Made by a program: the position numbers and the translations under genes
The notes under the pieces: generated by a model
Seen by the model: the letters and a program-made list of their open reading frames with translations, nothing else
Told to the model about the DNA's origin: nothing
Database searches by the model: none
Shown here: one piece after another, positions 18,363 through 38,567 of the stretch
How the letters are laid out: each line of letters starts with the position of its first letter
Numbering within the stretch: the first letter of the stretch is position 1
Assembly (NCBI GenBank): GCA_021325435.1
Contig: JAJPHE010000118.1
Location: forward strand, 1-64,000
Source of the DNA: Actinomycetota bacterium
GTDB lineage: Bacteria; Actinomycetota; Acidimicrobiia; Acidimicrobiales; JAJPHE01
Direction of reading: 5' to 3'
Length of the DNA stretch: 64,000 nucleotides

Positions 18363-19214
18363 ATGGGAGCAGGTCGACGACTGGCGGCTCTGGCGGGGGC
18401 TGCCGCCCTGGTCGGCATGGCCGTGGCCCACGCCCCCTGGGCCTCGGCCCGGCCCGTCCTCGGCCACGGCTCCTTTGTCCATCCCGTCGGAGCGGTCGAC
18501 TCCGGAGCCCTCAAGGTCGCCGCCCCGACCATGACGTCCAACAACTGGTTCGGCTACGACCAGGGCAGCATCGCCCGGGGCGGGGTGACCTTCCACTCGA
18601 TCTCGGCCCAGTGGACGGTCCCCCGGGCCAGCGCCCACCAGGCCGGCCAGGCCGAGTACTCGGCCACGTGGATCGGCATCGGCGGCGGCTGCATCGACTC
18701 GGGATGCACCTCGACGGACTCCACCCTCATCCAGGCCGGCACCGAGCAGGACATCAACACCGGCGGAAGCTCCTACTACGCCTGGTGGGAAACGATCCCC
18801 GGTCCGTCGGTCGGCCTGTTCCCCGTCAGCCCCGGCGACCACATGTACGTGTCCATCGCCGAGGGCGCCCCCGAGGTGTGGGCGATCACCGTGGCAGACC
18901 TGACCAACGGCCAGCACCAGACCCTGAGCGTGCCCTACAGCTCGAGCTACCTGACGGCGGAGTGGATCGAGGAGACGCCCGTCGTCCTCGGAGGCAGCAG
19001 CACCGGGCTGGCGCCGCTGCCCAACCTGACGACGGTCAACCTCGACCACGCCACCGTCAACGGACGGGGCGCCGGGCTGGCCTCCACCCAGCGCATGGAG
19101 CTGGTCAACCTGTCCGGGGCTCCCATCGCCACCCCCTCCAACCCCGACGCCTCCGCCGACGGCTTCAACGCCTGCACCTGGTCGACGTCCTGCCCCACCC
19201 CCAAGGGCAGCTGA
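18363..19214 (+). CDS. secreted glutamic (G1/eqolisin-like) peptidase, paralogue 1
   Basis: 283 aa. Signal peptide LAALAGAAALVGMAVAHAPWASA, then the G1 fold: NNWFGYDQGSI, HSISAQWTVPRAS, SATWIGIGGGC, TLIQAGTEQD and AEWIEETPVV. In the eqolisin family a Gln and a Glu form the catalytic pair; here the Gln of LIQAGTEQD and the Glu of AEWIEE fit these positions (family knowledge plus alignment by eye). These enzymes work at acid pH outside the cell. ATG at 18363 has GGGAGGT upstream. It has four Cys, probably disulfide-bonded. It has a paralogue at 22656-23555. Confidence 0.82.
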   Translation: MGAGRRLAALAGAAALVGMAVAHAPWASARPVLGHGSFVHPVGAVDSGALKVAAPTMTSNNWFGYDQGSIARGGVTFHSISAQWTVPRASAHQAGQAEYSATWIGIGGGCIDSGCTSTDSTLIQAGTEQDINTGGSSYYAWWETIPGPSVGLFPVSPGDHMYVSIAEGAPEVWAITVADLTNGQHQTLSVPYSSSYLTAEWIEETPVVLGGSSTGLAPLPNLTTVNLDHATVNGRGAGLASTQRMELVNLSGAPIATPSNPDASADGFNACTWSTSCPTPKGS

Positions 19215-22655: not shown

Positions 22656-23555
22656 ATGAGAGTGGCGGTTCTTCGTTGGGCGCGCCCGCCCCGGGCCGGC
22701 GTCGTCGTCGGGGCCTGTCTGCTCAGCGTGGCGGCCTGGGCTGCCGCCCCGGCGGTGGCCGCCAGCACTCACGCCGAGTCGGCGCGGCCCGCCGTCCACA
22801 CCTGGCACGGCCGCCCCGTCGTCGAGGTGGGCGCCAACCAGTCGAACAACTGGTCGGGCTACAACCAGGGCAACCTCGAGACCGGCAAGAGCGGGGGCTT
22901 CCACTCGATCACCGGTGACTGGATCGTGCCCACCGCGTCGCCCCACAAGCCGATGGAGTCCGAGTACTCGGCGACCTGGGTCGGCATCGGCGGCGGGTGC
23001 CTAGACACCGCCTGCTCGCAGACCGACAACACCCTGATCCAGGCCGGCACCGAGCAGGACGTCAACTACGACCCGATCGCCGGCACCAGCGAGAGCTACA
23101 GCGCCTGGTACGAGCTGATTCCCAACACGTCCATCACGGTCAACCTGACCGTCAAGCCCGGTGACCACATCCACGTGGACATCCACGAGAACCAGATCAA
23201 CAGCGAGAACTGGTCGATCACCATCCAGGACGTGAGCAGCGGCCAGAGCTGGTCGGACACCAACATCAGCTACCAGTCCACCTACGCCACCGCCGAGTGG
23301 ATCGAGGAGACCCCCGTCGTCGTGGCCGTTTCGGTGCCCCCGACGGTCGGCTTCGTCCCCCTGCCCAACCTCGGCACCGTCACCTTCGACCCGGGCACGG
23401 TCAACGGCGCCAGTCCGGGCCTAGTCCCCGCCGAGGCGCAGCAGCTGGTCGACCTGACGGGCAGCCCGGAGGCGACCGCTTCGGCTCCCGACTCGGATAC
23501 CGACGGGTTCAACGACTGCAGCTACGCCAGCAGCTGCACCGCGCCCGCCAGCTGA
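22656..23555 (+). CDS. secreted glutamic (G1/eqolisin-like) peptidase, paralogue 2
   Basis: 299 aa. Signal peptide with a long basic start (MRVAVLRWARPPRAGV) and hydrophobic core. The mature part parallels the 18363-19214 protein: NNWSGYNQGNL, HSITGDWIVPTAS, SATWVGIGGGC, TLIQAGTEQDVN and TAEWIEETPVV. The candidate catalytic Gln (IQAGTEQD) and Glu (AEWIEE) are both kept. ATG at 22656 sits 6 nt after AGGAGG; the ATG at 22641 overlaps that signal and is not chosen. It ends with DSDTDGFNDCSYASSC, a Ca-type acidic loop shared with its paralogue. It is probably a tandem-duplicate pair separated by the CWB2 and hydrolase genes. Confidence 0.82.
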   Translation: MRVAVLRWARPPRAGVVVGACLLSVAAWAAAPAVAASTHAESARPAVHTWHGRPVVEVGANQSNNWSGYNQGNLETGKSGGFHSITGDWIVPTASPHKPMESEYSATWVGIGGGCLDTACSQTDNTLIQAGTEQDVNYDPIAGTSESYSAWYELIPNTSITVNLTVKPGDHIHVDIHENQINSENWSITIQDVSSGQSWSDTNISYQSTYATAEWIEETPVVVAVSVPPTVGFVPLPNLGTVTFDPGTVNGASPGLVPAEAQQLVDLTGSPEATASAPDSDTDGFNDCSYASSCTAPAS

Positions 23556-24072: not shown

Positions 24073-26298
24073 ATGAGGATCGCTCGCCGCCGTCGCTTGT
24101 TGTCGGCCGCCGCCGTCACCCTGGCCGGTACCGGCGCTGCCGTCGTGGGGATGCCGACCTCCTCCTCACCTCTCGGCGCCCGCCCGGCGGCCGCCGCCAC
24201 CGTCACGCCCCGGCTGGTGTGGTCCAAGACGATCCCCGGTGCGGCGATCCGAGAGTCGTCGCCCACGGTGGCCACCCTCGACTCCGGCGGACCGGCCATG
24301 GTGGTCGGCTCGCTCAATCACAACGTGTACGCCTTCCACCTGGCCGACGGCTCGGCGGTCGCCGGCTGGCCGGTCTCGACCAGCAACGAGGTCGACTCCT
24401 CGCCGTCGGTCGCCGACGTCGACGGCAGCGGCCAGCCCGAGGTGTTCGTCGGCAGCGGCAGCTACGACACTCCGGGCGGCGCCTACTACTCGTTCACCCA
24501 CGACGGGCACCTCCGCTGGCGGTACCAGGGCAGCGACCCGAACCAGTCCAGCGAGGCGGTGTTCTCCACCATGGCCCTGGGCGACATCAACGCCGACGGG
24601 GCCCCCGACGCCACCGCCGGAGCCCTCGGGCTGCAGATGTACTCGCTCAACGCCATCAGCGGAGGGGTGAATCCGGGCTGGCCGTACTACACCGACGACA
24701 CCGTCTTTTCGTCTCCGGCGCTCACCGACCTCGACAACAACGGCCAGACCGAGGTGGTGATCGGCGGTGACTCCACCCCGGGTGGCACCATCGACCACCG
24801 CGGTGGCCTGGTCCGCGCCCTCGACGGCGCCGGCCACGTGATCTGGCAGTACTTCACCGACGAGATAGTCCGCTCATCGCCGTCGGTAGCCGACCTCGAC
24901 GGCAGCGGGTTCCCCGAGATCGCCTTCGGCACCGGCGCCTACTGGGTCAACCAGCCCGGGGGGGCCATCGACTCGACCTACCTCTTCCTCCTCAACCACG
25001 ACGGCAGCCTGCGCTGGAAGCACAACCTGAACGGCTACACCCTGGCTTCGCCCGCCCTGGCCGACTTGACCGGGTCGGGCCAGCTGGACGTCGTGGAGCC
25101 CACCGCCGGCCCCGGCACCACCGGCCAGGTGTGGGCCCTCGACCCCAACGGCAACGTGCTCCCCGGCTTTCCGGTCAACCCCGGCGTCGGCATCATCGTC
25201 GGCGGGGTGGCCACCGCCGACCTGACCGGCGGTGGCGCCCAGGACATCCTGGTCGGCACCGGCGCCGGCCTGTTCGCCTACGACGGGCACGGCAACCAGC
25301 TGTTCAGCGAGCTCCCCGGCAACTTCGGGCTCCAGAACACGCCGCTGGTCACCCAGGACCCCAACGGCACCATCGGGATAACGGTGGCCGGCTCGGACCA
25401 CACCGGCGACGGGGTGATCTTCCACTACGAGATCACCACCGGTAAGGGGATGGGCGCCCTGTCGTGGCCGATGTTCCGCCACGACCCCCGGCGCACCGGC
25501 TCGTTCACCAACCCGCCACTGGCCCGCAGCTACTGCCCAGCCAACGGCACCGGCGGATACCGGTTCGTCGCCTCCGACGGGGGCGTGTTCGCCTTCTGCG
25601 GCGCCTCTTTCTACGGCTCGATGGGCGGCCACCCCTTGGCCGCTCCCATCGTCGGCATGGCCTCCACCCCTGACGACCGGGGCTACTGGCTCGTCGCCTC
25701 CGACGGGGGGATCTTCACCTTCGGCGACGCCGTGTTCAGAGGTTCGACCGGATCCCTTCATCTGGCCGCGCCCATAGTCGGCATGGCACGAACACCCGAC
25801 GGGGGTGGTTACTGGCTGGTGGCGTCGGACGGGGGCATCTTCACCTTCGGCGACGCGGTGTTCCGCGGCTCGACCGGGGCGATCCACCTCAACCAGCCGA
25901 TCGTGGGCATGGCTCCCACGCCCGACGGTGGGGGCTACTGGCTGGTCGCCCGCGATGGCGGCATCTTCTCCTTCGGCGACGCGGTGTTCCGCGGCTCGAC
26001 CGGGGCGATCCACCTCAACCAGCCGATCGTGGGCATGGCCTCTACGCCCGACGGTGGCGGCTACTGGCTGGTCGCCTCCGATGGCGGCATCTTCTCCTTC
26101 GGCGACGCCGGGTTCCACGGGTCTGCCGGGGCCATCCGGCTGGCCAAGCCGGTGGTGGGCATGGCGGCCACATCCACCGGCCAGGGCTACTGGCTGGTGG
26201 CCTCCGACGGGGGCATCTTCACCTACGGCGACGCCGTCTTCTACGGATCGACCGGCGCCTTGGCCCTCGCCGCTCCCATCGTCGGCATGGCCCGATAG
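24073..26298 (+). CDS. secreted FG-GAP/VCBS propeller protein with C-terminal six-repeat domain
   Basis: 741 aa. N-terminus MRIARRRRLLSAAAV suggests a Tat-type signal peptide ending near ARPAAAA. Residues ~50-470 hold about seven FG-GAP-like blades with Ca-binding loops such as DVDGSGQPEVFVG, DINADGAPDATAG, DLDNNGQTEVVIG, DLDGSGFPEIAFG and DLTGGGAQDILVG, as in integrin-like seven-bladed propellers. Residues ~492-741 are six copies of the 42-residue GGYWLVASDGGIFxFGDAxF repeat also found in the VanY protein. The AAAGGAGG at 24061-24068 fixes the ATG at 24073. Extracellular binding or scaffold role is inferred; no catalytic motif is seen. Confidence 0.82.
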   Translation: MRIARRRRLLSAAAVTLAGTGAAVVGMPTSSSPLGARPAAAATVTPRLVWSKTIPGAAIRESSPTVATLDSGGPAMVVGSLNHNVYAFHLADGSAVAGWPVSTSNEVDSSPSVADVDGSGQPEVFVGSGSYDTPGGAYYSFTHDGHLRWRYQGSDPNQSSEAVFSTMALGDINADGAPDATAGALGLQMYSLNAISGGVNPGWPYYTDDTVFSSPALTDLDNNGQTEVVIGGDSTPGGTIDHRGGLVRALDGAGHVIWQYFTDEIVRSSPSVADLDGSGFPEIAFGTGAYWVNQPGGAIDSTYLFLLNHDGSLRWKHNLNGYTLASPALADLTGSGQLDVVEPTAGPGTTGQVWALDPNGNVLPGFPVNPGVGIIVGGVATADLTGGGAQDILVGTGAGLFAYDGHGNQLFSELPGNFGLQNTPLVTQDPNGTIGITVAGSDHTGDGVIFHYEITTGKGMGALSWPMFRHDPRRTGSFTNPPLARSYCPANGTGGYRFVASDGGVFAFCGASFYGSMGGHPLAAPIVGMASTPDDRGYWLVASDGGIFTFGDAVFRGSTGSLHLAAPIVGMARTPDGGGYWLVASDGGIFTFGDAVFRGSTGAIHLNQPIVGMAPTPDGGGYWLVARDGGIFSFGDAVFRGSTGAIHLNQPIVGMASTPDGGGYWLVASDGGIFSFGDAGFHGSAGAIRLAKPVVGMAATSTGQGYWLVASDGGIFTYGDAVFYGSTGALALAAPIVGMAR
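25549..26298 (+). repeat. six tandem 126 bp coding repeats (42-residue propeller-type unit)
   Basis: Six tandem units. The units beginning near 25849 and 25975 are almost identical, with about 70 bp matching base for base (around 25842-25913 versus 25968-26039), pointing to recent duplication or gene conversion. Confidence 0.85.
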
Positions 26299-26301
26299 CG
26301 G

Positions 26302-27120
26302 GTGGTCCCCGCTCGGCGGCCGCCCGGGCTGGCGGGGGCCCTGGCCGGTCGCCCGGTGGCGGGGATCGACCTGGCCTGGGGCCGGCGCAACCGCACCGGT
26401 CTGTGCGCCGTCCGACCCGACGGGACGGTGATCTCCTCGGCCAGCGTGCTCAGCGACGACGAGATCGTCGAGTGGATCCTGAAGCACTCGGCCAGCCCGG
26501 CGGTGGTGGGGTTCGACGCGCCGATCGTGGTCGACAACCCGACCGGCCGGCGCCCGTGCGAGACCCTGGTCAGCCGGGCCTTCGGGGCCCAGAAAGCCGG
26601 CTGCCACTCCTCCAACCGGTCCATGGCGGTCTTCGCCGACGGAGGTCGGGCCCGGGCGCTGGCGAGGAGGCTCGACCTGTGCCTGGACCCGAACGGTTGC
26701 ACTCAGGAGGTGGGTCTGGCCGCCGAGGTCTACCCCCACGCCGCCGTGGTCGCCCTCTTCGGGCTGGCCGAGCGCATCCCCTACAAGGCGGGGAGGGGTC
26801 GCAGCCTCGAGGACCGCCGGGCCGCCCTCGGCCACCTCGTCACTCTCGTCGAGTCGCTGGTCGATGGCGACCCGCCGCTCGATGTCCCGTCCTCGCCCCG
26901 GTGGGCCGGGCTGCTGGCCGCCGTCGACGGGGCGGCCACCCACCGGGCCCTGGACGAGGCGGAGGACGAGATCGACGCCTATGTCTGCGCCTATGTCGCC
27001 CTCTGCCTCGCGTCAGACCTCGGCGATGGCGGCCGCCGGGTAGATGTGATGGGCGAATGGGCTGCCGGTGCCATAGTGACGCCGGCAGCCCGTCGTCAGC
27101 TGGCCGTGACGGTCAGGTGA
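26302..27120 (+). CDS. DUF429 family protein
   Basis: 272 aa. The start of the fold, VAGIDLAWGRRNRTGLCAV, with a strand-DxxW motif, then VVGFDAPIVVDNPTGRRPCE, the HSSNRSMA loop and EVYPHAAVVALFGL are typical of DUF429, a predicted RNase H-like-fold family with unproven function. The C-terminal acidic helix DEAEDEIDAYVCAYVAL fits the family's closing Asp. GTG at 26302 is used; a GTG at 26356 (MAGIDLAWG) is an alternative. It begins 3 bp after the FG-GAP stop, so it may be co-transcribed. Its 3' end overlaps the convergent CWB2 gene by 25 bp. Confidence 0.82.
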   Translation: MVPARRPPGLAGALAGRPVAGIDLAWGRRNRTGLCAVRPDGTVISSASVLSDDEIVEWILKHSASPAVVGFDAPIVVDNPTGRRPCETLVSRAFGAQKAGCHSSNRSMAVFADGGRARALARRLDLCLDPNGCTQEVGLAAEVYPHAAVVALFGLAERIPYKAGRGRSLEDRRAALGHLVTLVESLVDGDPPLDVPSSPRWAGLLAAVDGAATHRALDEAEDEIDAYVCAYVALCLASDLGDGGRRVDVMGEWAAGAIVTPAARRQLAVTVR

Positions 27121-30074
27121 TCCCCGCTCGACTCACACGTGTTGTTGTTCGGCGCCGCCTGGGTGCACACGGTGTCGTTGTCGGTGCCCACCCGCGAGGT
27201 GACCGTCACCGTGTCGCCCGCGGCGAAGGAGCCCGAGGGCAGGGTGAGCGTCACCGTCGGTGAGTAGCCGCCGCTGCCCGAGCAGGTGATCGAAGTGATC
27301 GTTGGCGTCGTGCTCGGGCCCGACGCAGGCGTGACCGTGACCGTGTAGTCCGTCGCCGTCGCCGAAGCCGGGTCGACCGTGGCGCAGGCGATGGGCTCGT
27401 CGTAGTCGACGACCGCCTGCTGGTTGGTGGACGACGTGCTGATGGTCAGCCTGGTCATCCGCGGCTGGCCGGGCGCCGACGCCACCAGGGAGGCGGTCTG
27501 GCTCTCCTGGCCGATCGAGTTGTCCTGGCCGAGGCTGTTGGCCGCCGTCCCCGGGCTGGAGCCGTTGCTCTCGGTGAACAGGTACGCCGTACCGCTGGTG
27601 AAGGTCACCGGCGACGAGGCGGCGGTCGGAACGGCGCTCTGGTAGGGGTGGTTCGGGCCCGATCCGCACGGCGCCGAGGCCAGCAGCGTCCCGCTGGTGT
27701 TGTAAATGTTGAGCCAGCTGCTGCTCGGGTCGCTGCACTTGTAGGTGACCATGTTCGCCGTCGGCCCCGTTCCGCTGGCGATCAGTGAGAACACCCCGGG
27801 GGCGGCCGGAAGATCATTGTTGGCGGTGGCCGGTGTCGGGCTATCGAACACCCGACTCAGGGTCGCCGGGGTGCCGGCGTTGCCGGGGGCCAACGGGCCG
27901 GTCGTCACCCCGCTGCCGGGAAGGTTCCAGGACTGGCCGGCGCCGTTGGTGATGCCCGACGCCGACAGCACCTCGAGGTCCTTGGCCGTGAGCGGCGTCT
28001 GCGACGGCAGAGGCGTGTTGAGGGTGAAGGTGACCGTCTTGTTGCCGTTGCTGAGAGCGGCCGACGAGTCCAGCGGGTTGAGCTGGGACTGGTTGTCCTT
28101 GCAGGTGTCGGGCGTGCCGCCGTTGGTGCACTGATCGGCGAGGATCACCGTGTAGTTGCTGCCCACCGACACCGCCTGGTCGAAGTTGACGATCAGCTGG
28201 TCGCCCTGGCTGACGGTGGTCGACGAGGCGCTGGCGGGCACGTACGACGTGCTGATGCTGCGGGGCGCCGACGACGTCGACGGGGCCCCGGCCGCCACCG
28301 GGGCCGGCTGGCTGGGCTGCAACTGGTTGGCGCCGGCGGGCTGCGCCGTGCCGACCTGGGTGCCGCCCGCCGCGTTCGGCGACTCCGACGACACCGCATA
28401 GCAGTAGTCGGAGCCGGTCACCGTGGCGGTGTCGTTGTAGGAGGTCGACCCGCCCGACCCTGAGCCGCCCACGTCGGAAGCCACCGCCTTGTAGGGCGAA
28501 GGGGGGGTGTTCTGCGGAGAGGAGCCTGGGGCGGTCGAGTAGGCCGCCGGGCAGGTGTCACTGCCCCCCGGGATCGACGACGGCGTGGCCGGAGCCCGCC
28601 ACACCGTGTAGCCGGTGACGTTGTCGGTGCCGGCCGTCGATGGGGCCGACCACGTAACCGTCACCCCTCCGGTCGTCGAGTTCGACGTGGTCGTCACCGA
28701 CGACGGCGGATGCGGGGCTACGTCGTTGAGGCAGAAGGTCGACGTCTTGCCTGGCTGGTAATTACCGGAGACGGAGTCGCCGTTGGACAGGCGGGCCTGG
28801 AAGTCGGAGAAGGTGTCCGACACGCAGGAAGCCGAGCCTCCGGGCGACGAGGACTGCTGGACGATCTGGTAGGTGTCGGACGGGCCGTAGGTGTAGGCCA
28901 GGCCGCCCTCGGTGAAGGTGCTCGACGACTCTGAGTCGACCACCGGAGTCGTGCCTGCAGCCGTGCCAAAGGTGCCGGCCGAGGCCGGCTTGGACCCCGG
29001 ACCCTGCCCCGCCGCCTGAATGGCCGACATCTGCGAATCCGGAACTGCCGACGTCCCGCCGAACACGTAGGAGGTTCCGGCCAGGGTCGACTGATGCTCC
29101 GTGGCAAAGGCCGTCGTGGAACCGGCGTCGGTCGGCGAGTTGGTGACGACCGTGGGCCACCCCTTCACCCCGGCCAGGGCGGCCCCGGCCAGGGCGTCGG
29201 CCCCATCGTCGCCCCGGGCCACGGTGAGGTTGGTGTTGGCCAGCCAGCCCTTCTGGATCCCGTAGTCGGCCAGGACCTTGGAGGTGGCAGAACGGTCACC
29301 GCCCGCCTCCACGTCCACTGTCGTGACCCCCGAGGGCGGCGGCGTGTACTCGGATGCCGGTATCGAAGCCGTGCCCCCGACGACGATCAGGTGCTTGATC
29401 CCCATATCGGAGATGACCTGCTGGGCCTCGGGCTGGAGGCCAGGACCCGAGGAGTTGGTGAGGATGATGGGGAACTTCCGGGAATAGGCGAGGCCGCCGG
29501 CGGCCAGGGCGTCGACGAGGTGCTTGTCCTCGCCCGAGGCGAGTATGGCGGTGGGATTCCCGGACCCGTCCGTTCCGGCGCCGCCCATCGACTCGTCGAC
29601 CATCTTCATCGTCTGGTAGCGGGTCGTGCCCTGGTAAGGCGTGGATACCTGGTAGCCGGCGGACTGCAAGGCGCTGATCTGCGCCTGGGAAACGGCTCCA
29701 GTCCCTCCTAGCACGACGATCTTGGAGACCTTGTTGGCTTGCAGGGCAGCAGTGGTGGAGCTGGGAACGGTGTTGGTGTTGTCGGTTAGCAGGACGCCGA
29801 GGCCGTAGGACCCCTCCACCCCGGCAGCGGACAGGGCATCGGACTGGTGACCGGGCACGCCGTCGGCCAGGAGGGCGGTCGGCTCGCCGGACGGGAACGC
29901 CGCTTGGTCCACCGCGCCAGCGGTCGCGTAGCGGTCTGACCCAGCGATCCGCTGGAGCGTGAAGCTGGCGGTGGCCGATGCCGCGGTCGGCATCATCGCT
30001 ACGGCTCCCGAGAGAGTCAGCAGCAGAGCTACTGCCCCGGTCAGCCGGGCGCGGACCTCACTGACACGTCGCAT
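27096..30074 (-). CDS. large secreted CWB2 cell-wall-binding protein with FnIII and Ig-like modules
   Basis: 992 aa. Signal peptide LTGAVALLLTLSGAVAMMPTAASA. Residues ~40-340 are three CWB2 repeats (RIAGSDRYATAGAVDQAAF; KIVVLGGTGAVSQAQ; HLIVVGGTASIPA and so on) for wall anchoring. A fibronectin-III-like module lies at ~455-560 (PPSSVTTTSNSTTGGVTVTW). A central beta region with low complexity follows. The last ~115 residues are one copy of the Cys-paired Ig-like module of the 19355 protein (IACATVD ... ITCSGSG). ATG at 30074 follows TTGGAGGA. The leader 30075-30150 can fold strongly. Probable surface-layer or adhesin-type protein; function inferred from domains. Confidence 0.82.
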   Translation of the reverse strand: MRRVSEVRARLTGAVALLLTLSGAVAMMPTAASATASFTLQRIAGSDRYATAGAVDQAAFPSGEPTALLADGVPGHQSDALSAAGVEGSYGLGVLLTDNTNTVPSSTTAALQANKVSKIVVLGGTGAVSQAQISALQSAGYQVSTPYQGTTRYQTMKMVDESMGGAGTDGSGNPTAILASGEDKHLVDALAAGGLAYSRKFPIILTNSSGPGLQPEAQQVISDMGIKHLIVVGGTASIPASEYTPPPSGVTTVDVEAGGDRSATSKVLADYGIQKGWLANTNLTVARGDDGADALAGAALAGVKGWPTVVTNSPTDAGSTTAFATEHQSTLAGTSYVFGGTSAVPDSQMSAIQAAGQGPGSKPASAGTFGTAAGTTPVVDSESSSTFTEGGLAYTYGPSDTYQIVQQSSSPGGSASCVSDTFSDFQARLSNGDSVSGNYQPGKTSTFCLNDVAPHPPSSVTTTSNSTTGGVTVTWSAPSTAGTDNVTGYTVWRAPATPSSIPGGSDTCPAAYSTAPGSSPQNTPPSPYKAVASDVGGSGSGGSTSYNDTATVTGSDYCYAVSSESPNAAGGTQVGTAQPAGANQLQPSQPAPVAAGAPSTSSAPRSISTSYVPASASSTTVSQGDQLIVNFDQAVSVGSNYTVILADQCTNGGTPDTCKDNQSQLNPLDSSAALSNGNKTVTFTLNTPLPSQTPLTAKDLEVLSASGITNGAGQSWNLPGSGVTTGPLAPGNAGTPATLSRVFDSPTPATANNDLPAAPGVFSLIASGTGPTANMVTYKCSDPSSSWLNIYNTSGTLLASAPCGSGPNHPYQSAVPTAASSPVTFTSGTAYLFTESNGSSPGTAANSLGQDNSIGQESQTASLVASAPGQPRMTRLTISTSSTNQQAVVDYDEPIACATVDPASATATDYTVTVTPASGPSTTPTITSITCSGSGGYSPTVTLTLPSGSFAAGDTVTVTSRVGTDNDTVCTQAAPNNNTCESSGDHLTVTAS

Positions 30075-30140: not shown

Positions 30141-30202
30141 CGAGCAGTGAGAACGACTGTGTTCCGGACCTTTCGTCACATCCGGGCGGAAGGCCGACGC
30201 GC

Positions 30203-30230
30203 GAGGAGGGGCCTCGGAAGGCCCCTCCTC
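30203..30230 (-). terminator. perfect 12 bp hairpin after small secreted gene A
   Basis: GAGGAGGGGCCT and AGGCCCCTCCTC with a 4 nt loop, 22 nt downstream of the stop codon at 30252. No T-tract follows. Confidence 0.75.
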
Positions 30231-30251
30231 GGCACTTCTGGTAGCTACTGG

Positions 30252-30623
30252 TTACGGGGCGGTGACGCCCTGGCCCCCTCCGGAGAGGCAGGCGCTCGGC
30301 GCGTTGCCCACGTTGAGGTAACCGTTGGGGCCTGCCTGCCCCGTGGGCGTGGCCGCGGTGTAGGCGCCCTGCACGCTTCCACCGCTTGTCGGGCTGCCCG
30401 AGGCGTAGAGGTAGCCGCTGGTGCCGGTGATTCCCGCGTCGCCGCCGCTTGCGCTGCCGTTGGCCCAGACCGTGCTGCCATCCGGCAACCCCGTCTGTGT
30501 GCCGCCCGCGGTCGGGGCGGTGGTGGTGCAGGAACTGGTGGGGGCCACGGCCAGCGCCGGGATGGTCCCAAGGGCGGCGAGGCCGAGCACGCCACCCGCT
30601 ACAGCCATGGTGCGGATCTTCAA
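30252..30623 (-). CDS. small secreted Gly/Ser/Thr-rich protein A, 123 aa
   Basis: The start is a TTG at 30623 with GGAGGAC 3 nt upstream, giving MKIRTMAVAGGVLGLAALGT, a clean signal peptide cut near ALA-VAP; the frame also runs upstream through implausible Pro-rich sequence. The ~98-residue mature part is rich in Gly, Ser and Thr with two Cys (SSCTTT and SACLS), likely a disulfide. A segment GYLYASGSPTSGGSVQGAY matches GYVVADGSPSNSGALSGYI of protein B, so A and B are paralogues. No catalytic motif is seen. It has a 180 nt leader with a hairpin beside the ribosome site and a terminator hairpin downstream. Confidence 0.7.
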   Translation of the reverse strand: MKIRTMAVAGGVLGLAALGTIPALAVAPTSSCTTTAPTAGGTQTGLPDGSTVWANGSASGGDAGITGTSGYLYASGSPTSGGSVQGAYTAATPTGQAGPNGYLNVGNAPSACLSGGGQGVTAP

Positions 30624-30643
30624 GTTGTCCTCCGTCTTGGTTG

Positions 30644-30660
30644 CCGCGGACCGTCCGCGG
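30644..30660 (-). promoter_or_regulatory. perfect 8 bp inverted repeat beside the ribosome binding site of gene A
   Basis: CCGCGGAC-C-GTCCGCGG with one central base, about 10 nt upstream of the Shine-Dalgarno of gene A. The near-zero loop suits a protein-binding dyad better than an RNA hairpin, but either could control the gene. Confidence 0.4.
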
Positions 30661-30854
30661 GTGATGCTGGGGGCACCAGGCAGGAGGGGGTTGAGTGAAG
30701 GCGGCGGCGGTTCTGCCCGGACACCCGGGGCGTTACGCGCCATGGATTCGTCACCCGGGGTGGCGGTTCCTGCTGTTCTGGGAAGAAAACTCTTTACCGG
30801 GCCGCTTAGGCGCTTCTAGACCGACACCCCCCGGTTTCGGTGGTTATGGCGGGC

Positions 30855-31754
30855 TCAGGAGGGTTTGCCGGCCAGGGCGACGTCGAAGTTCACCGGCCGG
30901 CTCGAGCTGTCCTTGAAGCTGGCTAGAAGCCGGGTGGGGACGGCCCCGGCGCGGGCGTAAGTGAAAACGCCGGTCGGTCGGCTTGTGCTGGTGAAAATTC
31001 CCTGCCCGGTCTCGCTGGCTCCGTTCTGGGTGACGAGGGAGGTCTGCTGGAGGGCAATGGAGGCGCTGCCCGAGGCGGCGCCCAGCCCGACCAGGGCGGC
31101 GGTGGCCTGCCCGTAGGAGAGAACGAAGGCTACCGACAGGGTCACCTGCCCTTGGGTCTGCTGGGCTCCTTCCGGGGTGAAGGCCATCGGGGCGCCGTCA
31201 TACCGGAAGTCGGACACCTGCCAGGCCCCGTGGACCGAGATCAGCTGGATCGGCCCGCTCAGGGTGCTGGTAGAGACCTGGTCGCCCTGGGATCCCTTCA
31301 CCTCGGTCCGCAGCTGAACCGTGCCCGACAAGGTCACAGCCCCGGCCGAGACCGACGATGGGCTGACCGACTCGCTGGTGACGGCCACGGTGGTGGTGCC
31401 GCCCCGGGCCTGGTTCACCTGCGCCACGGTCAGGCGGACGGAGCCGAGCCCAGCGGCCGCCCCCGTCGAGTACCTCAGCATCTGTGCCGAGTCCCGGTTG
31501 GCGATTCCTTGCAGATAGAGGTCGAGAGCCGCCATGGCCGCGGTGGCGTCGGAGCCGGGCCCGGGCTGGCTAGCCGGACTGGTGGGTCGGGTGGCGGGCG
31601 GGGTGGGCGCAGTGGTGGCGCCGGTGGTCGTGGAGGTGCTGGTGCTAGCTCGGTTCTGGCGCCCCGGCGGGACCGCCTGCTTCGGCGCGCTGGCTGCGCA
31701 TCCCGACGTCAGGAGCACAACGGCGACCAGGACGGACGACCGACGACGCAGCAC
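30855..31754 (-). CDS. predicted lipoprotein, 299 aa
   Basis: The GTG at 31754 gives MLRRRSSVLVAVVLLTSGCA: a lipobox (LLTSGC) at residue ~18, so the product is probably lipid-anchored outside the membrane. A Ser/Thr/Pro/Ala linker follows (residues ~30-75). Then comes a single folded domain with helix AAMAALDLYLQGIANRD, a Ser-rich beta region, and a closing beta part (FTYARAGAVPTRLLASF). It resembles the NTF2-like or 'DUF4878'-like lipoproteins in outline only; I cannot name the family. The GTG has a weak ribosome site. It lies downstream of gene B and its hairpin, so it may be partly served by read-through. Confidence 0.65.
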   Translation of the reverse strand: MLRRRSSVLVAVVLLTSGCAASAPKQAVPPGRQNRASTSTSTTTGATTAPTPPATRPTSPASQPGPGSDATAAMAALDLYLQGIANRDSAQMLRYSTGAAAGLGSVRLTVAQVNQARGGTTTVAVTSESVSPSSVSAGAVTLSGTVQLRTEVKGSQGDQVSTSTLSGPIQLISVHGAWQVSDFRYDGAPMAFTPEGAQQTQGQVTLSVAFVLSYGQATAALVGLGAASGSASIALQQTSLVTQNGASETGQGIFTSTSRPTGVFTYARAGAVPTRLLASFKDSSSRPVNFDVALAGKPS

Positions 31755-31776
31755 GGGGCGGAATGTAGCGATGAAG

Positions 31777-31807
31777 TTCGAGGGGGCCCCGGAGGGGCCC
31801 CCTCGAA
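31777..31807 (-). terminator. perfect 14 bp hairpin after small secreted gene B
   Basis: TTCGAGGGGGCCCC and GGGGCCCCCTCGAA with a 3 nt loop, 30 nt downstream of the stop of gene B. Confidence 0.75.
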
Positions 31808-31836
31808 AGGTTGCTGGTTGCTTGTTGGTTTGCCGA

Positions 31837-32280
31837 CTACGGCGCCGAGACGGCGCAGGGGCCCGAGGAGCCCGGGGCCGGTGCCCCGGTCGGGTTGCTG
31901 AACAGCAGGATGGCATTGTTCTGGCCGGAGGCCGGGGTGTACGAGTCGGTGGCGCCGGGGGTGTAGTCACCCGAGGAGCAGCCGACGATGCCCTTGTTGT
32001 CGGCGCCGATGTAGCCGGAAAGGGCCCCGGAGTTGGACGGGCTTCCGTCGGCCACGACGTAGCCGGTCGCAGTCGAGGCGCTGCCGGCGGCGGTCACAGT
32101 GCCCTGGACGGGGGTGCCGTTGGTGCAGACTTGAACGCCGCTGTTGCCGGCGGCGTCCGTGTAGCTGGGGTTCACGCCGGCGCTGCCGCAGCTCGAGTTG
32201 GCGCCGGCGACGCCGGCCGACAGTGCCAGGCCGCCCACCACGACCGCCCCGACCAGGGTCGAGGTCAGGATCTTCCGCAT
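31837..32280 (-). CDS. small secreted Gly/Ser-rich protein B, 147 aa
   Basis: ATG at 32280 preceded by AGGAGGAGATA. Signal peptide MRKILTSTLVGAVVVGGLAL, cut near VAGA-NSS. The mature ~120 residues carry four Cys (NSSCG, VQVCTN, VGCSSG, GPCAVS), which could form two disulfides, and many Gly, Ser and Thr. It shares GYxxAxGSPxxxGxxxGY with protein A. No membrane segment after the signal, so secreted or wall-attached. Possible roles are matrix component, pilin-like or ligand of the CWB2 proteins; none is proven. Confidence 0.7.
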   Translation of the reverse strand: MRKILTSTLVGAVVVGGLALSAGVAGANSSCGSAGVNPSYTDAAGNSGVQVCTNGTPVQGTVTAAGSASTATGYVVADGSPSNSGALSGYIGADNKGIVGCSSGDYTPGATDSYTPASGQNNAILLFSNPTGAPAPGSSGPCAVSAP

Positions 32281-32407
32281 TATCTCCTCCTGTTGTCAGG
32301 CAGGGATCACGGGCCTTCCGTGCCCCCCCTCTGGCGTCGGCGGCTGGTGGTGATGGCCACGAACCCGGATAGATCAGCCGATGCCGGCCGGAGGTTCGTT
32401 AAACGCC

Positions 32408-32413
32408 TTTAGG
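32408..32413 (-). promoter_or_regulatory. CCTAAA box upstream of gene B
   Basis: On the minus strand GGAATCCTAAAGGCGTTT lies about 125 nt upstream of gene B. The hexamer recurs upstream of other exported-protein genes. A second copy (CCTAAA, plus strand, 32479-32484) sits beside the gene C terminator. Confidence 0.35.
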
Positions 32414-32485
32414 ATTCCTTCACCAGAAAGAGGATTTTTTTATCTGGCCGGCAGCAGGGGCTTGTACCGGCGATACCGCCTAAAC

Positions 32486-32522
32486 GGTGCTGGGGGAGCC
32501 CAGTAGGGGCTCCCCCAGCACC
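32486..32522 (-). terminator. perfect 16 bp hairpin after small secreted gene C
   Basis: GGTGCTGGGGGAGCCC and GGGCTCCCCCAGCACC with a 5 nt loop, 20 nt downstream of the stop of gene C. The longest perfect stem in the window. Confidence 0.78.
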
Positions 32523-32541
32523 TGACGGGCGAGGCAAAGGG

Positions 32542-32910
32542 CTACCCGGTCGGGCTGCCCACCACCACCGAGCCGTCCCCGGAGACGCTGCAGTAGGGGA
32601 AGTCCCCGGCCGGTATTCCGGTCTGGCTCGCGAAGGGCCCGGGGGCGGAGATGGTGGCCACGATCGTGGGTGTGCCTCCGGCCGTGGTGGTGTAGCCGAC
32701 CTGGATCGAGCCCGAGGCCAGGGTCCCCGCCCAGCCGCCGGCGGCGGTGTCAGCTGTGGTCGCCGAGTCGGTCGGTTGCGCCCCGGTGGCGCAGGCGGCA
32801 CCGTTCGGCCCGGTGGCGTGAGCCGCCGGCCCCGTCAACAGCACGCCTGCCGCCGGGCCGGCCACCAGAGAAGCCCCCAGCGCCAGACGAGTGATCGTCT
32901 TCCTTCTCAT
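32542..32910 (-). CDS. small secreted protein C, 122 aa
   Basis: ATG at 32910 with AAGGAC upstream. Signal peptide MRRKTITRLALGASLVAG..., cut near AAHA-TGP. The ~91-residue mature part is Thr/Ala/Gly-rich with two Cys (GAACAT and FPYCSV). It is similar in size, composition, Cys number and gene layout to A, but sequence similarity to A and B is faint. The AT-rich stretch around 33050-33078 in its leader is unusual for this genome and may be its promoter. Function unknown. Confidence 0.68.
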   Translation of the reverse strand: MRRKTITRLALGASLVAGPAAGVLLTGPAAHATGPNGAACATGAQPTDSATTADTAAGGWAGTLASGSIQVGYTTTAGGTPTIVATISAPGPFASQTGIPAGDFPYCSVSGDGSVVVGSPTG

Positions 32911-33096
32911 GAGTCCTTGGTCTCCTTGCCTGTCGGGTTCCACGAGAGCTGGCGAGCCGCGGCCCTCCAGCGGGGCGGACGACGGGTACCGAGAGGCTCG
33001 AGACCGTCCGCCTCGACCAGGATTCGGCAATCGGCAGTTTCGGTCCTTCTGGATATAAGGAAGCTTTTTCTTAAATTGCCCTAACGATGTCGCGGG

Positions 33097-35684
33097 TCAG
33101 GGCGCCTCAGCCAGCGCCACCTCGATCCGCTCCTCGCCGGTGTCGAGGTCGAGCGACGAGATCGATCCGGCCTCCCGTAGGTCGTCGGCCGCCGCCCGGA
33201 TGAGGGCGACCCGTTCGGGGGTGTCGACCACCCGGACCCGCTCCACCGGGGCCCTCATCGACACCGACGACTCGGTCTTGGCCTTGCGCACCCGGGCCAG
33301 CACAGTCGACACCGCATCGAGGATCTCGGGGTCGCTGCCCGCGGCCCCTGTCCATCCGCCGGCTGGTGTCAGGTCGCTCGAGGAAGGCCACGCCGACCGG
33401 TGGATCGACCCCTCCTGCCACCACGACCACACCTCCTCGGTGACGAAGGGCAGGAACGGAGCGAAGAGTCTGAGGATGGTCGACAGGGCGGCGGCCAGCG
33501 CCGCCTGGGCCGAGGCGGCCCGCTCCGGGCCGCCCGAGCCGTAGGCCCGGGCCTTCACCAGCTCGAGATAGTTGTCGCAGAACGACCAGAAGAACGACTC
33601 GGTTCGCTCCAGGGCCCGGCTGTGGTCGTAGGCCTCGAGCGCCTCGGTCGCCTCCGCCGCCACCTGGGCGAGGTGCGAGAGCATGGACCGGTCGAGCGGT
33701 TCGGTGACCGCGGCCAGGTCGTAGGTGGAGTCCTCGACCCGCGACAGGGCGAACTTCGACGCGTTGAGCAGCTTGATGGCAATCGTCGCCCTACCCGCAT
33801 CTGGGCGGTGTCGAAGGTGGTGTCGGCGCCCAGCCGCCCGCTGGCCGACCAGTAGCGGAAGCCGTCGCTGCCGAACTCCTCGAGCAGGTCGATGGGGGTC
33901 ACGGCATTGCCCTTCGACTTTGACATCTTCTTGCGGTCGGGGTCGTAGATGAACCCGGAGATCGCCGCGTCCGACCACGGCAGGCTGCCGTGCTCGAAGT
34001 GGGCCCGCACCACGGTGGCGAAGAGCCAGGTGCGGATGATGTCGTGGGCCTGCGGGCGCAGGTCCATGGGGAAGACGCGGGCGAAGAGATCCGGGTCGTC
34101 CTCCCAGAAGCCCCCGATCTGAGGGGTGACCGAGGAGGTGGCCCAGGTGTCCATGACGTCGGGGTCGGCGGCGAAGCCGCCTGGCTGGTTGCGCTGGTCC
34201 TCGGTGTAGCCGTCAGGCACGTCGGTAGTCGGGTCGATGGGAAGGCGGACCTCGTCAGGGATCAGCGGTCGCGCGTAGTCGACGGACCCGTCCCCGGCGA
34301 TCCGGTACCACAGCGGGAAGGGGACGCCGAAGAAGCGCTGTCGGCTGATCAGCCAGTCCCCCGTCAGGCCGTTCACCCAGTCCTCGTAGCGGACCCGCAT
34401 GAAGTCGGGGTGCCACCGCAGCTCCTTGCCTCGGGCGATGAGCGCCTCGCGCAGGGCGGCGTCGCGGCCCCCGTTGCGGATGTACCACTGGCGGCTGGTG
34501 ACGATCTCGAGGGGCCGGTCGCCCTTCTCGAAGTACTTGACCGGATGGGTGATGGGCTTCGGATCGCCGACCAGCTCACCGGAGTCGCGCAGGAGCTCAA
34601 CGATGCGGGCCTGGGCCTGGCGCACCGTCTTGCCGGCGAGCTCGTCGTAGGCCCGCTGGGCGGCGGCGGGGTCGTCGCTGGGCGCCCAGGCCGGGTCCGA
34701 CCAGTCCACCGTCCGCAGCCGGCCGTCGTGGCCGACGACGCCCCGGACCGGTAGTTGCAGCTCGCGCCACCAGGTGACGTCGGTCAGGTCGCCGAAGGTG
34801 CAGATCATGGCGATCCCCGAGCCCTTCTCGGGGTCGGCCAGGGTATGGGCGACGACCGGAACGCGCGCCCGGAACAGGGGCGTAAGCACCTCCGAGCCGA
34901 ACAGCGGCTGGTAGCGCGAGTCCTCGGGGTGGGCGACCAGCGCGACACAGGCGGGGATCAGCTCGGGTCGGGTGGTCTCGATCTCCACCGGGGGGCCGTC
35001 GCCGGAGGCCCGGGGGAACCGCAGCCGGTGGTAGGCGCCCGGCACCTCGCGGTCCTCCAGCTCGGCCTGGGCGACGGCGGTGCGGAAGTCGACGTCCCAG
35101 AGGGTCGGCGCCTCGGCCTGATAGGCCTCGCCCCGGGCCAGGTTGCGCAGGAACGCCCGCTGGGAGGCCCGCTGGGACCGGGCGTCGATGGTGGCGTAGT
35201 TGAGGGACCAGTCGACCGACAGCCCGAGTCGCCGCCAGACCGCCTCAAAGGCCTGCTCGTCCTCGGCCGTCAGCCGGTGGCACAGCTCGACGAAGTTCGG
35301 CCGCGAGACGTGGACCGGCTGCTTGCCCGGCTTCTCCGGTGGGCGGAAGTCCGGGTCGTAGGGCAGGGAGGGGTCGCACAGGACCCCGTAGTGGTTCTGC
35401 ACCCGGCGCTCGGTGGGCAAGCCGTTGTCGTCCCAGCCCATCGGGTAGTACACCTCCTGGCCCCGCATCCGGCGGAAGCGGGCGACCAGGTCGGTGTGGG
35501 TGTAGGAGTAGGCGCTGCCGACATGCAGGGTGCCGCTGACCGTGGGGGGCGGGGTGTCGATGGCGAAGATCTCCTGCCGGGTTCGAGTCCGGTCGAACCG
35601 GAACGTGGACTGTTCCTCCCAGCGGGCCGTCCACTTCTCTTCGAGGCCCTCCAAGGCTGGCTTATCGGGCACGGTCGGTCGCAT
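33097..35684 (-). pseudogene. valS: valine--tRNA ligase, interrupted by a one-base frameshift
   Basis: Valyl-tRNA synthetase charges tRNA-Val with valine. The N-terminal reading frame (35684 to ~33780) holds DTPPPTVSGTLHVGSAYSYT (the HIGH region, here HVGS), the CP1 editing domain (EIETTRPELIPACVALVAHP) and KKMSKSKGNAVTP. At 33780 the frame must shift by one base to continue as AIKLLNASKFALSR, the anticodon-binding domain, to the stop at 33097. One base, most simply a G in TTGGCC, is missing. Together the parts make a full-length protein of about 862 aa. As valS is normally essential and single-copy, a sequence error is as likely as a real mutation. Divergent from cysS; start ATG 35684. Confidence 0.88.
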
Positions 35685-35704
35685 CGTCCGGTTACGGTAC
35701 CCGG

Positions 35705-37087
35705 GTGCTGCGGCTCCACGACACCGCATTGGGCGAGGTTGTCGACATCGAGCCGGCCCAGCCCGGCCGCTTCTCCATGTACGTCTGCGGCCTGACCGTC
35801 TACGACGTCCCCCACATCGGCCACGGCCGCGCCGCCCTCGTCTACGACCTGCTGCGTCGCTATCTCGAGTGGACCGGCGTCGACGTCCACCACGTCTCCA
35901 ACGTCACGGACATCGACGACAACATCATCCAGCGGGCCGAGCGCGAGGGACGCTCGTCCACCGAGGTGGCGGAGCAGTATGAGCGAGCCTGGTGGGACGC
36001 GGTCGACCGTCTGGGGGTGCTGAGGCCCCACGACATCCCCCACGCCACCGAGTACGTGGAGCGGATGGTCGAGCTGATCGGACAGCTGTTCGAGCGCGGT
36101 TACGCCTACCAGGCTCCCGACGGGGTGTACTTCGCCACCGAGGCTCTGGACGGCTACGGCCTGCTCGCCGGACAGCCGTTGGAGTCGTTGCGGGCCGGGG
36201 CCCGGGTCGAGTCCGACGAGTCCAAGCGCTCACCGACCGACTTCGCCCTCTGGAAGCTTTCCAAGCCGGGCGAGCCGTGGTGGGAGTCCCCGTGGGGCAA
36301 GGGCCGCCCCGGCTGGCACACCGAGTGCGTCGTCATGTCGCTCGACCTCCTGGGCGACGGGTTCGACCTGCACGCCGGCGGCCTCGACCTGAAGTTCCCC
36401 CACCACGAGAACGAACGGGCCCAGGCCGTCGCCCTGGGCAAGAAGTTCACCCGGCACTGGATGCACCACGCCTTCGTGGAGGTGGCCGGGGAGAAGATGT
36501 CCAAGTCACTCGGCAACTTCACCTCTCTCACTGACCTCCTGGCCCGCACCGACGCCCGGGCCTACCGGCTACTCGTCCTGCAGTCCCATTACCGGTCTCC
36601 GATGGAGGTGACGGTGTCGACCGTCGACCAGGCGGTGCGGGGGCTCACCGGCCTCGACACGTTCGCCCTCCGGTTTCGCGACGCGTTCGACGACGCCGAC
36701 GCCGCGGCCCTCGCCAGTCGCGCCGACGCCGAGGAGTTGGCCCGCTTCCGCCAGCGGATGGACGACGACCTCGACACGCCTCCGGTCACCGGACAGCTGT
36801 TCGATCTGATCCGACGGGGGAACGCGGCCGCCGACACCGGCGGCGGGGAAGACGCGGAGCGGATCGCCGCCACCGTGGCGACCGTGGCCGGCGCCCTCGG
36901 GCTGGCGCCCTATCTGACCGGGGACGTTCCGGCGGACGTGGTGGCCGCCTGCGCCCGCATCGACGAGGCCCGGGCCCAGCGCGACTTCGCCACCGCCGAC
37001 GCCATCCGGGCCGAGCTTTCCGCCGGCGGGTGGATCGTGGAGAACAGCCCGACGGGAACGCGCGTCAGGCAGGCTCCGACGCCCTGA
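35705..37087 (+). CDS. cysS: cysteine--tRNA ligase
   Basis: 460 aa, class I aminoacyl-tRNA synthetase charging tRNA-Cys. Zinc-binding and catalytic motifs are complete: YVCGLTVYDVPHIGHGRAAL (first Cys ligand and HIGH), GWHTECVVMS (second Cys), HAGGLDLKFPHHENE (His/Glu ligands) and GEKMSKSLGNF (KMSKS). The C-terminal helical domain ends with FATADAIRAELSAGGW. Length is standard. GTG start at 35705, divergent from valS with 20 bp between. A MshC homologue was considered, but the C-terminal DALR-type domain is present, as in true CysS. Confidence 0.96.
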   Translation: MLRLHDTALGEVVDIEPAQPGRFSMYVCGLTVYDVPHIGHGRAALVYDLLRRYLEWTGVDVHHVSNVTDIDDNIIQRAEREGRSSTEVAEQYERAWWDAVDRLGVLRPHDIPHATEYVERMVELIGQLFERGYAYQAPDGVYFATEALDGYGLLAGQPLESLRAGARVESDESKRSPTDFALWKLSKPGEPWWESPWGKGRPGWHTECVVMSLDLLGDGFDLHAGGLDLKFPHHENERAQAVALGKKFTRHWMHHAFVEVAGEKMSKSLGNFTSLTDLLARTDARAYRLLVLQSHYRSPMEVTVSTVDQAVRGLTGLDTFALRFRDAFDDADAAALASRADAEELARFRQRMDDDLDTPPVTGQLFDLIRRGNAAADTGGGEDAERIAATVATVAGALGLAPYLTGDVPADVVAACARIDEARAQRDFATADAIRAELSAGGWIVENSPTGTRVRQAPTP

Positions 37088-37106: not shown

Positions 37107-38567
37107 CTAGGGGAGGGGAGCGTTAAGCGACGTCGTGCCGGTGGCCTGGGTCGACACCGAGACGGTCACCCCGGGACTAGTGGTGGTGGGGGGGGTGCTC
37201 CCCACACCGGCGCCACCAACCGATGCACCTACGGTCGAGCCGGTTCCGGCACCGGCCGACACCGTGGCGGTGGGGGCCGGAGCGAGGTCGGCAGAGGTCG
37301 TCACCTGGGCGATCGGGGTCGTGGACCCGCCCGTCGACCCTCCGCCCGATCCGAGGGGAAGCGGGAGAGGGAGCGGCAGGCTGCTCAGGGGAGTCGTCGA
37401 CGCCGCCGGGGCGTTCACCGGGGCTACCGGAGGCGCCGGCTGGCTGGCCACGGGAGCAGCCACCTGGGCGGGCGGAGCGGTGGCGGGCTCCGGTGTGGCG
37501 ACCGGTGCAGGCGGGGGCGCCAGCGCGATCGGCAGGGCGGGTGCGGCCGGGTTGGCCTTGGCCGCCGTCTCCTGGACCACGACCGGCTTGCCCACCGGGG
37601 CGGCGGCCGCCGGCCGGCTGGCGCCCGATCCGAAGGGGGGCTGGCCCACGATGGTGGCCCCGATGATGCCGAGGCCGAGGAGACCGACGCTGGCGCCCAT
37701 CAGCGCCCGCTGGCCGGGCAGGGACACGACCTTGCGGGCCCGGTGAGCGGCGAGGGTGCCGGTCGAGACCTTGTGCCAGTGATCCCAGGCCAGGGCGCCG
37801 AGGGCCAGCGGCAACGGCAGAACTGCCCGGCGCAGCGTGCCGCCCAGGTCCTCGAGCTCGGCCAGGCGGGCCCGGCACTCCTCGCAACCGGCGAGATGCT
37901 GGTCGACCTTGGCGATGTCGCGGGGAGCCAGGCCGCCGCCGACGTAGGCGCCCAAGCGCTCCACGGTGTAGCGGCAGTCGTCGTGGACCTCGGTGCGGAG
38001 GTGGGCCTGCAGGTAGCGCTGGCGCAGCCCGGCGCGGGCCCGCACGGCCAGCTGGGCGGCGCCGTTCGGCGAAACCCCGAGCAGGCCGGCGGCCTCGGAC
38101 GGGGCCAGCCCCTCGACCTCGGTCAGCCAGAGCACGGAACGCCACCGCTCGGGCAGGCTGCGGAAGGCCGCGGCCACCAGCGAGGCGTCGAGCTTGTCGA
38201 CCAGCCGGTCGGACGAATCGACGCTGCCGGGCTCGCTATGGGGCAGCTCGTCCACCGGGCGGACCCGTCCCCCCCGCCGCAGCACGTCGATGGCGGCGTT
38301 GCGGGTGGTAGCCAGCAGGTAAGGCCGGAACCGCTCCATGTCAGCCAGACGGCCGGCGGTCAGGGCGGTGAAGACCCTGGTGAACGCCTCGGCGACGGCG
38401 TCGGCGGCGTCGTCTCGGTTGGACGTGACGGCGTAGGCCACCCGCCACGCCGCCTCGGCGTGGCGGCGGTACAGCTCGTCGAATGATGTGGAATCACCGG
38501 CGGCGGCGGCTCTCGCCAACTCGTCGTCGGCGATCGCTGCGCCGGTCAGATCGACCCTCTGCGCCAT
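37107..38567 (-). CDS. ECF sigma factor fused to zinc-finger anti-sigma domain, membrane segment and Pro-rich tail
   Basis: 486 aa. Sigma region 2 (FDELYRRHAEAAWRVAYAVT ... FRPYLLATTRNAAIDVLRR) and region 4 (LPERWRSVLWLTEVEGLAPS with GVSPNGAAQLAVRARAGLR) occupy residues ~25-185. A zinc-finger anti-sigma-like motif follows: YTVERLGAYVGGGL then VDQHLAGCEEC (HxxxCxxC, ~205-225). A membrane helix lies at ~280-305 (MGASVGLLGLGIIGATIVG), and ~180 residues rich in Pro, Ala, Thr, Ser and Gly end the protein. It thus carries its own regulator and, if the tail is exported, an outside sensor. ATG at 38567, GAGGAGG upstream. Confidence 0.85.
   Translation of the reverse strand: MAQRVDLTGAAIADDELARAAAAGDSTSFDELYRRHAEAAWRVAYAVTSNRDDAADAVAEAFTRVFTALTAGRLADMERFRPYLLATTRNAAIDVLRRGGRVRPVDELPHSEPGSVDSSDRLVDKLDASLVAAAFRSLPERWRSVLWLTEVEGLAPSEAAGLLGVSPNGAAQLAVRARAGLRQRYLQAHLRTEVHDDCRYTVERLGAYVGGGLAPRDIAKVDQHLAGCEECRARLAELEDLGGTLRRAVLPLPLALGALAWDHWHKVSTGTLAAHRARKVVSLPGQRALMGASVGLLGLGIIGATIVGQPPFGSGASRPAAAAPVGKPVVVQETAAKANPAAPALPIALAPPPAPVATPEPATAPPAQVAAPVASQPAPPVAPVNAPAASTTPLSSLPLPLPLPLGSGGGSTGGSTTPIAQVTTSADLAPAPTATVSAGAGTGSTVGASVGGAGVGSTPPTTTSPGVTVSVSTQATGTTSLNAPLP

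Follow-up and report, generated by a model that had tools for sequence, protein, structure and literature searches.

In Streptomyces, the chaplins and rodlins form multi-gene families of small exported proteins whose genes are driven by extracytoplasmic function (ECF) sigma factors, and the chaplins mostly bear two cysteines (PMC5826349, PMC5618241). S. coelicolor lacking the ECF52 factor SCO4117 expresses both chaplins and rodlins at strongly reduced levels (PMC5826349). As to transcript ends, the structured 3′ ends of Streptomyces clavuligerus (72.5% GC) comprise 353 U-lacking vs. 182 U-rich ones, and the U-lacking ends have been likened to I-shaped terminators or Rho-dependent ends (PMC8269248). 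Here, we analyzed three neighboring genes, A, B and C, in a stretch of 64,000 nt (the window; contig C153) from the genome of an uncultivated actinobacterium, probably of the class Acidimicrobiia (4.0 Mb, 160 contigs, 96% complete). Each gene encodes a short exported protein, lies behind a promoter-like element common to all three and is followed by a long perfect hairpin. In our judgment, it is about an even call that A, B and C are transcribed separately but under common control and encode abundant exported proteins, most likely located at the cell surface or in an extracellular matrix. Genes and hairpins had been noticed in an initial annotation of the same stretch; the common promoter-like element is new here, and gene D, situated between A and B, was missing from that annotation. 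The features are as follows:

30252–30623, minus strand: gene A, exported protein of 123 aa with 2 Cys, mature part almost uncharged (from the translation)
31837–32280, minus strand: gene B, exported protein of 147 aa with 4 Cys and GYVVADGSP (from the translation)
32542–32910, minus strand: gene C, exported protein of 122 aa with 2 Cys (from the translation)
30855–31754, minus strand: gene D, lipoprotein-like, 299 aa, between A and B, lipobox LLTSGC read by eye
30746–30771, minus strand: promoter-like element of A, AGGA-N17-CGAAT, 148 nt to the start codon
32394–32419, minus strand: promoter-like element of B, AGGA-N17-CGAAC, 139 nt to the start codon
33022–33047, minus strand: promoter-like element of C, AGGA-N17-CGAAT, 137 nt to the start codon
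30772–30816, minus strand: A/T-enriched tract upstream of the A element, 44% A+T
32420–32464, minus strand: A/T-enriched tract upstream of the B element, 49% A+T
33048–33092, minus strand: A/T-rich tract upstream of the C element, 62% A+T, the highest of 18
30202–30231, minus strand: hairpin after A, perfect stem of 13 bp without a U-run (putative 3′ end/terminator)
31777–31807, minus strand: hairpin after B, perfect stem of 14 bp, directly before gene D
32486–32522, minus strand: hairpin after C, perfect stem of 16 bp

The element AGGA-N16/17-CGAA(T/C) was spotted by eye when the leaders of the three genes were set beside those of the relatives' genes. It is present upstream of all three genes with a spacing of exactly 17 throughout, the distances listed above being counted from its first base. 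Judged by its position, the leaders would be ~105–115 nt long, which backs the long leaders proposed in the initial annotation. Since the element was first seen in A, B and C, the counting test relies on the remaining genome, with spacings from N8 to N29 counted over 1.96 Mb (about half of the genome; 1873 genes called by a purpose-written simple caller), the survey that also underlies the gene-by-gene counts below. Gene-upstream sites amounted to 4 at N16 and 14 at N17, i.e., 18 in total, vs. 17 over the 20 other spacings (Poisson P about 4e-13), and 15 of the 18 remain without A, B and C. Two boxes at a fixed spacing, enriched over other spacings upstream of genes, are expected of a promoter for an alternative (ECF-type) sigma factor, and the optimum at N16/17 agrees with this. 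Genome-wide, 26 sites match AGGA-N16/17-CGAAT, whereas its reversed form matches 3; of those 26, 19 lie outside genes, about 36–190 nt upstream of a start codon. Two element sites are situated 35 nt from the start codon, none being closer, and would give nearly leaderless mRNAs. When the A+T content was compared in the 45 nt upstream of the 18 elements, C ranked first, B second and A fourth, the intergenic mean being 32%; by this measure, the tracts appear to resemble an UP-element-boosted promoter. A sigma-70 promoter scan of the region found none, and a literature search identified no known sigma group with the AGGA/CGAAT box pair.

Exported-looking genes account for 10 of the 18 genes behind the element vs. 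207/1873 (11%) overall (p 4e-6), and for 7 of 15 when A, B and C are left out (p 5e-4). Read by eye, element genes outside the exported set appear to encode proteins for the synthesis and export of polysaccharides, an ABC exporter and a regulator of the WhiB type; phosphoesterase-like, CAP-domain, glycosyl-hydrolase-like and ABC-binding proteins are encoded behind the element as well. Such a mixed regulon (enzymes, binding proteins, WhiB and polysaccharide genes, named by eye) would also suit secreted proteins of some other role (adhesins, inhibitors, antimicrobial or signaling proteins), strongly expressed within the same exported-protein regulon, an explanation we hold to be possible, though on the doubtful side; the properties of the proteins that bear on it are given below. 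Beside these genes, the Peptidase A4 gene at 18363–19214 (+) has GGA-N16-CGAAT (not AGGA) 79 nt upstream and may join the same regulon.

In line with the initial annotation, which had called the genes short, exported and Cys-bearing, the predicted proteins comprise 122–147 aa and show signal-peptide-like N-termini followed by 2, 4 and 2 Cys in A, B and C, respectively. Gene A starts with TTG after GGAGG. The motif GYxxAxGSP, earlier ascribed to A and B, was found in both (GYLYASGSP in A, GYVVADGSP in B), and the profile comparison of A with B by hhalign backs this common region (probability 74%, E 2.7e-5). The mature proteins consist to 72–77% of Gly, Ala, Ser, Thr, Pro and Asn; mature A has 2 charged residues out of 98, and the number of Lys/Arg residues is 0 in A, 1 in B and 0 in C. 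Among 1783 proteins of the same genome, the three occupy ranks 1–3 for the smallest K, R, D, E, H fraction, A being the lowest. It follows that tryptic mass spectrometry would probably fail with these proteins. Searches against Pfam, NCBIfam and PDB sequences matched A, B and C to no family, and the sole Pfam match of the C-family members, DUF5666, was sub-threshold. The 2–4 conserved Cys would suit small disulfide-stabilized proteins and hence another secreted role, yet compact binding proteins do not typically combine a near-zero charge with the above composition, several divergent paralogues form a cluster, and the family searches matched no toxin, immunity or enzyme family. The initial annotation had proposed a matrix, pilus or sheath protein. 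The pilus was not borne out, as the prepilin motif GF(T/S)LxE before a hydrophobic helix is absent from the sequences of A, B and C as read, while a matrix or sheath protein is plausible in view of the composition, the co-regulation with exported and polysaccharide genes, and the neighbors with CWB2 cell-wall-binding repeats.

The perfect stems behind A, B and C measure 13, 14 and 16 bp and lie 19–29 nt past the stops. The earlier figures were 20–30 nt for the distance, in agreement with ours, and 12, 14 and 16 bp for the length, of which that for A needs correction. As had been claimed, no hairpin in the window is stronger: these are its three longest stems, and shuffling the whole window ten times with a first-order Markov model produced a single 12-bp stem and nothing longer. 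RNA folding of the 3′ regions yielded −33.5 to −47.5 kcal/mol (z −4.9 to −5.8). Among the gene-following hairpins of the 1.96 Mb, the three rank 4th, about 10th and about 17th. Of 30 stems of at least 13 bp, 28 are intergenic, and such stems stand behind 32/1873 genes (1.7%), including A, B and C; convergent genes may share one stem. The other genes closed in this way comprise 4 of the 8 type IV pilin genes (Fisher p 5e-6) and those for CWB2-type secreted proteins, HU and Hsp20. That 29 further genes, many of them not exported, are followed by such stems would agree with A, B and C being ordinary secreted genes with ordinary terminators, the high G+C content explaining everything. We regard this as quite unlikely: long stems close so small a share of genes, yet three of them adjoin here, and A, B and C have in common one spaced element and one extreme composition, in a layout recurring in other families. 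A further explanation, that the hairpins are mobile palindromic repeats, draws on all three being GC-rich palindromes in intergenic DNA; it is extremely improbable, as the three sequences differ and a whole-genome search with the region gave only the palindromes' own reverse strands and two short weak matches.

A terminator scan for U-runs found none behind the A/B/C stems, where the first 8 nt are CGCGTCGG, CTTCATCG and GTTTAGGC; of the canonical intrinsic terminator, the stable GC hairpin near the stop is present and the U-run is lacking. The pattern GGGGCC..GGCCCC, counted as a terminator proxy, was not above its reversed control, so that one single pattern cannot capture these hairpins, and Rfam gave sub-threshold matches only, mostly on the palindromes, with no known riboswitch or leader RNA. 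Stems without a U-run might serve chiefly as RNA stabilizers or attenuators instead of terminators, with hairpin B fixing the B:D ratio; gene D does begin 23 nt past hairpin B, has no copy of the element within the preceding 260 nt and may be read through this hairpin. We nevertheless find this role fairly unlikely, because hairpin 3′ ends in GC-rich S. clavuligerus need no U-run (353 vs. 182; PMC8269248), and B and A each get a new element after the end of the preceding gene. Given that U-lacking ends are common in S. clavuligerus, and that long stems stand behind pilin, HU and Hsp20 genes, the A/B/C stems are best read as the 3′ ends of separate, probably abundant mRNAs. The earlier description of the transcripts as very abundant thus gains indirect backing, from the stems of like length behind those genes and from the A/T tracts before the elements. 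The transcripts had also been called independently controlled: each gene indeed has its own element and hairpin, but the element is one and the same, hence the genes would be separately transcribed but co-regulated.

Two other loci of the genome deserve mention with regard to hairpins. At L193:7103–9292, three similar type IV pilin genes lie in tandem, each with a 12–13 bp perfect hairpin behind it, in a layout like that of A, B and C; at L202:11738–12751, the longest hairpin of the 1.96 Mb, with a perfect stem of 18 bp, stands behind a gene that was taken by eye to encode a CWB2-like secreted protein.

The same layout was then sought in relatives, as the initial annotation had advised, and homologous hairpin-bearing clusters were found in two genomes, G012 and G040; A/B homologues and such clusters are present in two further families within the order. 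For B, homologues occur in G012 and G045, with a weaker one in G219; for A, there are two in G012 and one in G040, and a further genome scan with the A profile found just two relatives, both known already; C-like proteins were detected by profile in G012 (two), G040 (two), G027 and G009. Contig 148 of G012 bears a tandem of four genes (C-like, A, B-like, C-like), three of them with 9–10 bp hairpins 14–24 nt past the stop, and on contig 96 of G040, A is accompanied by two C-like genes, hairpins of 11 and 14 bp standing behind A and one C-like gene. Stems of at least 9 bp within 100 nt follow 7/11 relatives' genes vs. 15/81 predicted genes on those contigs. The promoter element is carried by 5 of the 10 relatives' genes examined, and the low-charge composition is mostly common to the relatives. 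In G040 (L037), an N run between a C-like gene (end near 3130) and the A homologue (start 3494) hides the A promoter. Across 59 relatives, the counts of the element are above the reversed control in many genomes, but the sites fall mostly inside genes where their positions were checked (see below).

The window contains two sigma factor genes, which we regard only as candidates for recognition of the element:

37107–38567, minus strand: candidate regulator, ECF sigma with a fused zf-HC2 anti-sigma domain (Pfam PF04542, PF08281, PF13490)
12421–13041, plus strand: second candidate regulator, ECF sigma, ShbA/BldN families best, below cut-offs

The former, ~4 kb upstream of C, combines sigma regions 2 and 4 with the zinc finger, a hydrophobic segment near residues 288–308 and a Pro/Ala-rich tail (both read by eye), a layout that makes it a candidate ECF52-like factor; no carbohydrate-binding module was matched in it by Pfam at E 0.001. 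The latter scored best with the ShbA and BldN-family models and is followed by an anti-sigma-like gene at 13038–13943.

The immediate surroundings of A, B and C include further surface-type genes. Next after A lies a 992-aa exported protein with three CWB2 repeats (27096–30074, minus strand), and gene D matched no known family. A second large exported protein with three CWB2 repeats is encoded at 19355–21457 (+); the two CWB2 genes are placed around a stretch that contains Peptidase A4 genes (18363–19214, 22656–23555), making up a region of secreted/surface genes. The product of the gene at 24073–26298 (+) is exported, matches beta-propeller/FG-GAP and contains GYWLVASDGGIF repeats in tandem, and fragments with similar repeats occur elsewhere in the genome (L207:8240–8467). 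On the other side, at 33097–35729 (−), a valyl-tRNA-synthetase-like gene (named by eye) is present in two frames, 33555–35684 and 33097–33978, split as if by a frameshift near 33790, which may be an assembly error or a real break.

Several observations weigh against A, B and C being co-regulated genes for abundant surface or matrix proteins. The A/B/C families are rare in the order, being found in 6–7 of ~397 genomes at E 0.001, several of them weak. AlphaFold performed poorly (mean pLDDT 40 for B alone and 46 for A with three sequences), and no fold backs a structural role. The exact element was not found upstream of either sigma gene of the window, so there is no sign of autoregulation. The export status derives from a crude, self-made signal-peptide rule, and without A, B and C, long stems and exported proteins are only weakly associated (p 0.12). 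Finally, in 30 other genomes with one site each, the element lies inside genes in 17 of the 23 classified cases; as the sites are mostly within genes, we refrain from extending the element to the order as a whole and propose its promoter use for its own genome and the relatives' clusters.

As to the mechanism, transcription would begin at AGGA-N17-CGAAT under an alternative sigma factor of the ECF type, with help from the upstream A/T tracts, to give leaders of about the length estimated above, and the strong GC hairpins would both terminate and protect the individual short mRNAs. Export of the proteins would proceed through their signal peptides, with disulfides probably forming outside the cell, and the near-zero charge and richness in Gly/Ala/Ser/Thr/Asn would suit packing in an insoluble or fibrous layer. 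We infer the abundance, the identity of the sigma factor and the structural role from sequence features. If true, uncultivated actinobacteria own a surface or matrix protein system without a catalogued family, and since its mature proteins are almost devoid of Lys/Arg, standard tryptic metaproteomics would be blind to it, so that an abundant extracellular class may have been missed. The promoter element, in turn, offers a testable exported-protein regulon in a lineage without genetics.

Among known systems, the element is similar to ECF sigma promoters such as that of SigR (GGAAT-N18-19-GTT) in its GGA-type −35 box, short conserved −10 box, fixed spacing and exported-protein targets, and differs from SigR-type promoters in its −10 box, CGAAT. 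The hairpins are similar to the U-lacking ('I-shaped') terminators of GC-rich bacteria in having a long GC stem, a loop of 3–5 nt, a position 19–29 nt past the stop codon and no U-run (PMC8269248), and unlike typical ones, they stand at the long extreme for their own genome. With regard to the chaplins and rodlins of Streptomyces (sigma-BldN, ECF52 SCO4117), the locus resembles them in having several small exported proteins per family and, in the window, ECF52-like and BldN/ShbA-like sigma genes; like chaplins, A and C combine a signal peptide with two Cys in the mature part, B having four. Unlike chaplins, the three proteins are longer than the short chaplins, bear no chaplin Pfam domain (no match to PF03777 at E up to 1) and show no sequence similarity found to them; a genome-wide chaplin search was empty, the control genomes being silent as well, hence this search was uninformative. 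The element AGGA-N17-CGAAT also differs from the motif CSGYN-17bp-SRHA proposed for SCO4117. At the sensitivity used, A, B and C do not belong to the chaplin family, and a chaplin/rodlin-like way of working may serve as a fair working model. Going further, we tentatively suggest that the locus represents an undescribed sheath or matrix system of an uncultivated actinobacterial order, in which clustered, nearly uncharged, Cys-bearing exported proteins of novel families would be produced in very large amounts under the control of a dedicated ECF sigma factor that also drives genes for secreted enzymes and polysaccharides, in other words, a possible counterpart of the chaplin/rodlin system outside Streptomyces.

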